DNA of 64,000 nt. It comes from Macrocystis pyrifera (lineage: Eukaryota > Sar > Phaeophyceae > Laminariales > Laminariaceae). Positions 5,199 to 44,838 of the stretch are shown one piece after another; position 1 is the first letter of the stretch, and every line of letters begins with the position of its first letter. Position numbers and translations under genes: made by a program. The DNA is taken from positions 11,488,528 through 11,552,527 of the forward strand of contig JASSKH010000005.1 in the NCBI GenBank assembly GCA_031763025.1, read 5' to 3'. Under the pieces are notes generated by a model. It did no database searches and had not been told where the DNA came from. It was given only the letters and a program-made list of their open reading frames with translations.

Positions 5199-5275
5199 TT
5201 ACGCTCTCCACTGCAAGCCTGAACAAGAAACTTCTTGATACGCCTTGTGATTGTATGGGTCCATCCGCGGGTTTG
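5199..5275 (-). CDS. Putative terminal exon with stop codon
   Basis: After a 128-base intron, the acceptor ctacacctag|caaacc opens a 77-nt exon in the right phase. It encodes NPRMDPYNHKAYQEVSCSGL, QWRA and TAA. The split codon becomes Ala instead of the Gly seen at all earlier LRR junctions. The pyrimidine-rich acceptor and matching phase support it, but the tail has no recognisable domain. The alternative is read-through of the LRR 12 donor to a stop at 5,336. Confidence 0.45.

Positions 5276-44838: not shown

Follow-up and report, generated by a model that had tools for sequence, protein, structure and literature searches.

Does a run of kinase exons followed by an array of leucine-rich repeat (LRR) exons in the genome of the giant kelp Macrocystis pyrifera form one gene, with the kinase first and the LRRs last, and what would such a gene encode? 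We addressed this question in a 64,000-nucleotide stretch of contig JASSKH010000005.1 (C219:11488528-11552527), hereafter the window. An earlier note, made from the letters of the sequence, had described the locus as one giant gene of this reversed order and had taken its product for an intracellular LRR-sensing kinase.

The locus was resolved into 21 recognisable exons on the minus strand, running from 44838 to 3925: an exon that we call E1, five kinase exons (K1 to K5), a Gln-rich linker exon, an LRR cap exon, twelve LRR exons and a terminal exon (Table 1). All the parts named by the earlier note are thus present in the order and on the strand that it gave, including the twelve LRR exons, which have AG/GT borders. 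When spliced, the exons yielded a single 3,024-nt frame whose only stop is at its end, and the model covers 1,007 residues. The limits formerly proposed, 44838 and 5199, had to be abandoned, the former being the acceptor of an internal exon and the latter having the terminal stop exon beyond it. Because E1 opens at a kept acceptor, a start-codon exon is expected upstream; when we compared the upstream regions across the copies described below and listed the ATG-to-donor candidates, no conserved start-codon exon was found. One intron of the LRR array carries a long trinucleotide tract (window 14541-14849), which in one of its frames translates into stretches of N and of I.

Table 1. Features of the kinase-LRR gene in the window (copy P1), the retroelement in its K3-K4 intron and the four further copies. 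Positions are those of the window unless C219 is given.
Feature	Position	Strand	Remarks
E1	44642..44838	-	internal exon, putative helical segment; conserved acceptor
K1 kinase exon	43187..43480	-	glycine loop GEGTFGTV, VAIK lysine
K2 kinase exon	35441..35636	-	helix C (REVEIQ), then strands
K3 kinase exon	28350..28529	-	HRDLKSLN, DFG
K4 kinase exon	22692..22787	-	APE motif
K5 kinase exon	21139..21318	-	C lobe end (ERP)
Linker exon	20220..20850	-	kinase domain end, then Gln-rich linker
LRR N-terminal cap exon	19333..19638	-	
LRR exon 1	18331..18402	-	72 nt
LRR exon 2	17638..17709	-	72 nt
LRR exon 3	16801..16872	-	72 nt
LRR exon 4	16073..16145	-	73 nt; followed by the sole phase-2 intron of the LRR array
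LRR exon 5	15465..15535	-	71 nt
LRR exon 6	14047..14118	-	72 nt
LRR exon 7	13222..13293	-	72 nt
LRR exon 8	10610..10684	-	75 nt
LRR exon 9	8035..8106	-	72 nt
LRR exon 10	7108..7179	-	72 nt
LRR exon 11	6581..6652	-	72 nt
LRR exon 12	5404..5475	-	72 nt
Terminal exon with stop codon	3925..4001	-	counterparts in P2, P3, P5
Ty1/copia LTR retroelement	22898..27779 (ends approximate)	-	K3-K4 intron of P1; outside the gene product
P2	11.62 Mb (C219)	+	closest copy to P1
P3	11.72 Mb (C219)	-	
P4	11.79 Mb (C219)	+	
P5	11.41 Mb (C219)	-	

We then used the rest of the genome (537,376,219 bases in 223 contigs) as a source of related genes. A search with the HRD/DFG exon (K3) returned 62 matches at E <= 0.001, the top five of which lie on C219 between 11.40 and 11.80 Mb. 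E1 and the LRR cap gave five matches each genome-wide (537 Mb, E <= 0.001), at the same five loci. Besides the gene in the window, which we call P1, there are therefore four copies (P2 to P5) within ~0.42 Mb, and the order E1, K1, K2, K3, K4, K5, linker, cap, LRRs is the same in 5/5. Weaker clusters of kinase matches (E about 1e-6 to 1e-3) were seen on two other contigs, C218 (11.0-12.1 Mb) and C128 (3.1-3.4 Mb), with no E1 or LRR-cap match at E <= 0.001 in either. When the LRRs of P5 were used as the query, the 50 genome matches at E <= 0.01 comprised the LRR exons of the cluster and LRR loci on other contigs. One of these contigs, C125, was considered as a second kinase-LRR locus and set aside: its LRR matches (4.000-4.007 Mb) hold several repeats in a single open stretch, and the kinase match ~18 kb upstream on the same strand (4024328) reads by eye as CAMK-type and seems to fall outside the P1-P5 family, so that kinase and LRR stretch are probably separate genes there.

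Full-length models were built for three of the five copies, P1, P3 and P5; the other two, P2 and P4, were set aside because each has a one-base deletion in K1, and the sequence used for P4 stops short of its 3' end. P3 gave a full open frame of 2,874 nt in 22 exons and P5 one of 3,282 nt in 21 exons, both with a lone terminal stop, and the borders of the three genes are all AG/GT except for one GC donor in P3. Since the kinases of P1, P3 and P5 are only 63-72% identical, the three genes are diverged enough for kept borders to be told. From E1 to the cap, acceptors and donors match across P1, P3, P4 and P5 with two exceptions, the E1 donor of P1, which leaves an exon of 197 nt versus 224 nt in P3, P4 and P5, and the K5 acceptor, which in P1 and P2 is an AG lying in frame 12 nt upstream from the site of the other three copies; at that site P1 and P2 read CAA where P3, P4 and P5 have CAG, the AG being lost. 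At the 3' end, P1, P2, P3 and P5 have in common a terminal exon ending in LPxxCx[VL][RK]L-stop. The comparison between paralogues itself set the borders of K1 and LRR exons 4, 5 and 8 in P1, of the cap in P2 and of LRR exon 5 in P3, and open frames partly guided the choice of borders, so frames and borders are not independent, yet matching borders work in three genes.

The deletions in P2 and P4 break the frame, and both fall within short single-base runs. They are possibly assembly errors; if they are real, some copies may be able to do without the kinase. In P1, P3 and P5, kinase and LRRs both look to be kept by selection, because their dS values are alike (0.76-0.95 and 0.80-0.83, respectively) and their dN/dS values are 0.23-0.28 and 0.30-0.39. 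E1 (0.32-0.62), the cap (0.50-0.68) and the tail (0.51-0.77) were less constrained, and the dN/dS of the linker was unusable (dS 1.64, 2.89 and saturated).

Whether the two halves are joined depends on the passage from linker to cap. The linker donor lies at 20220 (ACGG/GTGCGT) and the cap acceptor at 19638. The earlier note had drawn this junction from 20,403 to 19,638; its acceptor stands, while its donor was rejected, as splicing at 20403 would drop ~61 residues for which P5 has an equivalent stretch, and the donor at 20220 is the one kept in P1, P3, P4 and P5. In these four diverged copies donor and acceptor occupy homologous places in phase 1, and the donor continues as GTGCGT or GTGGGT. 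Phase alone is weak evidence, since 22-33% of the donor-acceptor pairs per gene agree by chance, and it is the conservation of the sites that counts. Ungapped identity near the junction makes a modest step at both sites: it is 0.61 before the donor and 0.45 after it, and 0.44 before the acceptor and 0.56 after it. Past the donor, the sequence is poorly kept and an in-frame stop is reached after 77, 74, 65 and 38 nt in P1, P3, P4 and P5, respectively. The two halves also share their branching: kinase exons K2-K5 separated P1 and P5 from P3 and P4 in 500/500 resamplings, and the cap with five LRR exons gave the same split, again in 500/500, at a divergence of 0.27-0.55 versus 0.16-0.33 for the kinase exons.

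An arrangement of two neighbouring genes, namely a kinase gene whose last exon is the linker exon, with its stop near 20143, and an LRR gene that begins directly behind it and was duplicated together with it, would make use of the stop 77 nt past the donor in P1 and of the ATGs that P1, P3 and P5 have in the frame of the cap, either at the cap or ahead of it. Head-to-tail pairs can be co-duplicated, and adjacency can mislead, as in the moss gene PpC24, whose transcript variants reported in PMC3991678 all stop before the adjacent LRR. Nevertheless, we regard such a pair as very improbable: donor and acceptor agree in phase and place in four diverged copies, whereas the stops past the donor and the cap-frame ATGs are at non-matching places, the open frame of the P4 cap has its only ATG inside the cap and none ahead of it, the gap of 420-693 nt is like the other introns of the same genes, and the cap occurs only beside the kinase, in 5/5 places. 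A single gene could also deliver mainly a kinase-only isoform, in which the intron that follows the linker is retained, the LRR form being its alternative product. In the four copies only about 12-25 further codons lie between the donor and the stop, and alternative splicing of LRR exons has been described for brown algal ROCO genes (PMC11378527); against this, the read-on tail differs between copies in length and sequence and the LRR half is under purifying constraint, and we consider such a main product unlikely. The order of the parts, the junction sites, the open frames and the shared branching across the paralogues together give strong support to the one giant gene of the earlier note. 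We conclude that kinase and LRR halves very probably belong to one gene, which is much more likely than two.

The spliced product of P1 was searched as a joined protein, as the earlier note had proposed, and returned Pfam matches to PK_Tyr_Ser-Thr (E 3.1e-38, residues 124-384) and LRR_1 (E 1.6e-31), the LRRs starting from about residue 700; the kinase of P5 matched PK_Tyr_Ser-Thr with an E value of 1.4e-40. Glycine loop, VAIK, helix-C Glu, HRD, DFG, APE and ERP are all present in P1, P3 and P5. When compared by sequence with solved structures, the P5 kinase was nearest to CTR1 (3.9e-29), IRAK4 and B-Raf, among the best 60 of 2,348 matches. CTR1, IRAK4 and RAF are kinases that we take to be TKL members, and the kelp kinase is classed as TKL-type because these are its nearest solved relatives. 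In the same kind of comparison the LRRs were nearest to the ectodomains of plant receptors, such as GSO1 and FLS2. No Pfam match to ROC, COR, NB-ARC or TPR was found up to E 0.01 in P1 or P5. The linker exon is rich in Gln in P1 (41/210 residues), P5 (58/303), P3 (18/138) and P4 (22/148), and its length seems to change by repeat expansion. The linker exon of P5 (C219:11406523-11407432, minus strand) contains a repeated SRPRPAQ.SHQSLDT-like peptide that is unrepeated in P1.

A membrane helix is commonly called from a Kyte-Doolittle mean of 1.6 over 19 residues. The best 19-residue means were 1.45 in P1, 1.39 in P3 and 1.19 in P5, so that no membrane helix was found in the covered residues of these genes, the first exon lying outside the covered part. 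The absence of a membrane segment reported earlier holds for the 1,007 residues of P1. By its part order, hydropathy and Pfam matches, moreover, the product appears to be neither a plant-type receptor kinase nor a ROCO or NB-ARC-TPR protein, as had been claimed.

Next, we studied the LRR exons. Nine of the twelve in P1 are 72 nt long and the others 73, 71 and 75 nt; the 73/71 nt pair, in which the intron is shifted by one base, recurs in P1, P3 and P5. Pairing the repeats by eye, we saw repeat 3 doubled in P5 and the repeat 10-11 pair doubled in P3, and repeat 8 of P1 was missing from P3 and P5. For a comparison of repeat faces we used 10 of 11 sets paired by eye, dropping the first for its length difference in P5 and leaving out unpaired and duplicated repeats. 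Difference rates were 0.60-0.80 at the outer positions 2, 9, 11 and 22, and 0.33-0.50 at positions 14, 15, 17, 19 and 20, which we assume to form the ligand face. No ligand-face diversification was seen among P1, P3 and P5, the outer positions varying at least as much.

P1 and its closest copy, P2, are inverted with respect to each other and align in main blocks (window 518-45202 versus C219:11.616-11.651 Mb and beyond) that are 87-94% identical in the kinase half and 96.5-98.6% identical in the linker-LRR half. This step in identity points to gene conversion or recombination. The great size of P1 is in part due to a Ty1/copia element of ~4.9 kb in its K3-K4 intron, with matches to gag, CCHC, a beta-barrel domain and the integrase core. 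The repeated pieces at its ends are 97.8% and 99.5% identical and P2 has an empty site; by its sequence, the insertion is young.

These features led us to a working model, in which the family encodes a soluble intracellular sensor or adaptor kinase, the product of a single gene with C-terminal LRRs that acts in MAPK-type signalling; taken as a whole, we hold this model to be somewhat likely. The protein would consist of a short N-terminal segment, a TKL Ser/Thr kinase, the Gln-rich linker, the LRR cap, twelve plant-type LRRs and a tail. Its C-terminal LRR solenoid would bind a ligand or a partner protein, and this binding would either draw molecules together or, by way of the flexible linker, release the kinase. 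Autophosphorylation would follow, and then signalling along a MAPK-type pathway, as is the case for TKL kinases of the RAF, CTR1 and IRAK kind. Immune sensing would be the likeliest use, although it is the least supported step. Its plausibility comes from the small size of the cluster and from LRR exons having been gained and lost, but the selection pattern does not call for it.

Two other roles were weighed against this model. The start exon that we did not find could encode a signal peptide or an anchor, making the product secreted or membrane-anchored with kinase and LRRs on the same side of the membrane. However, the cytosol is where one would expect an active kinase, and since no membrane helix separates the kinase from the LRRs in P1, P3 or P5, a kinase inside with LRRs outside is unsupported, so a secreted or anchored product appears rather improbable. 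Alternatively, the LRRs could scaffold a kinase cascade of development or stress instead of sensing pathogens, comparable to SHOC2, which acts on RAF, but here in cis. A TKL/RAF-like kinase and LRRs under purifying constraint with no excess at the ligand face would suit a scaffold. The tandem cluster would suit it less: it is small and includes inverted copies, its LRR exons have been gained and lost, and its identity step is suggestive of gene conversion, all of which is more typical of recognition genes. We give the scaffold role a real but minor chance. The product is thus probably a soluble sensor kinase, and to call it an intracellular LRR-sensing kinase, as the earlier note did, is a fair inference from its parts.

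Comparison with known systems showed that the kinase-first, LRR-last order is not wholly new. The earlier note had called it unknown, which is too strong: the PK-NBS-LRR proteins (PNL, kinase-NL) of the moss Physcomitrella have an N-terminal kinase and C-terminal LRRs (PMC3352924), the closest layout that we found. The moss proteins carry an NB domain in the middle; in the kelp gene the Gln-rich linker stands there instead, and Pfam gave no match to NB-ARC up to E 0.01. More generally, NLR and PK-NBS-LRR proteins place a signalling domain at the N-terminus and LRRs at the C-terminus, a layout that the kelp gene shares. Plant LRR-RLKs and stramenopile LRR-RKs, of which PMC3268121 counts two in Ectocarpus and up to 34 in oomycetes, resemble the kelp gene in joining LRRs to a kinase of the TKL/receptor-kinase sort, and the kelp LRRs resemble the plant ectodomains; their order, however, is signal peptide, LRRs, membrane helix and kinase, whereas that of the kelp gene is reversed and without a visible helix.

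Within the lineage, the nearest likeness is in the exons. Brown algal ROCO genes are built from symmetrical 72-nt exons that encode one 23-residue LRR each, from nucleotides 3-71, and the LRR exons of the kelp gene have the same one-LRR-per-exon form (PMC11378527). ROCO proteins have ROC and COR, and the brown algal ones are given there only with the layout LRR-ROC-COR; in the kelp gene ROC and COR are unmatched, a kinase is present and the LRRs are C-terminal. For Saccharina japonica, the same study reports shuffling LRR exons in 15 sequences that are not ROCO, the majority of which consist of LRRs only. The NB-ARC-TPR genes of brown algae are, like the kelp gene, candidate receptors with repeat exons (PMC11378527, PMC8307928), but neither NB-ARC nor TPR was matched in the kelp product up to E 0.01. 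The closest match to a kinase-then-repeat layout that we found in a related lineage is among the TKL kinases of Phytophthora Oomycete Subfamily 1, with C-terminal ARM, TPR or PDZ; in the passages considered of that report (PMC3019232), LRRs are extracellular parts of transmembrane proteins, with no C-terminal LRR case. Among the literature matches listed, a set that leaves subscription papers mostly outside, we found no brown algal kinase-LRR gene in kinase-first order.

Finally, the family may tentatively be added, as a third class, to the candidate recognition proteins of brown algae that are built from repeat exons, although we hold this to be doubtful as yet. Such proteins would have an NLR-like layout with a TKL kinase as output domain, a Gln-rich tether in place of the nucleotide switch, and an LRR array that changes as symmetrical exons are gained or lost and as gene conversion acts among the copies of the cluster. 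Little is known of the recognition proteins of brown algae, a lineage whose complex multicellularity arose separately from that of plants and of animals. A TKL kinase joined to plant-type LRRs would, if true, link sensor to signal in one molecule, in a kelp of economic and ecological weight in which the family can be tested. A further suggestion is that symmetrical LRR exons can become joined to a new output domain, a point of relevance to the origin of recognition receptors through exon shuffling.
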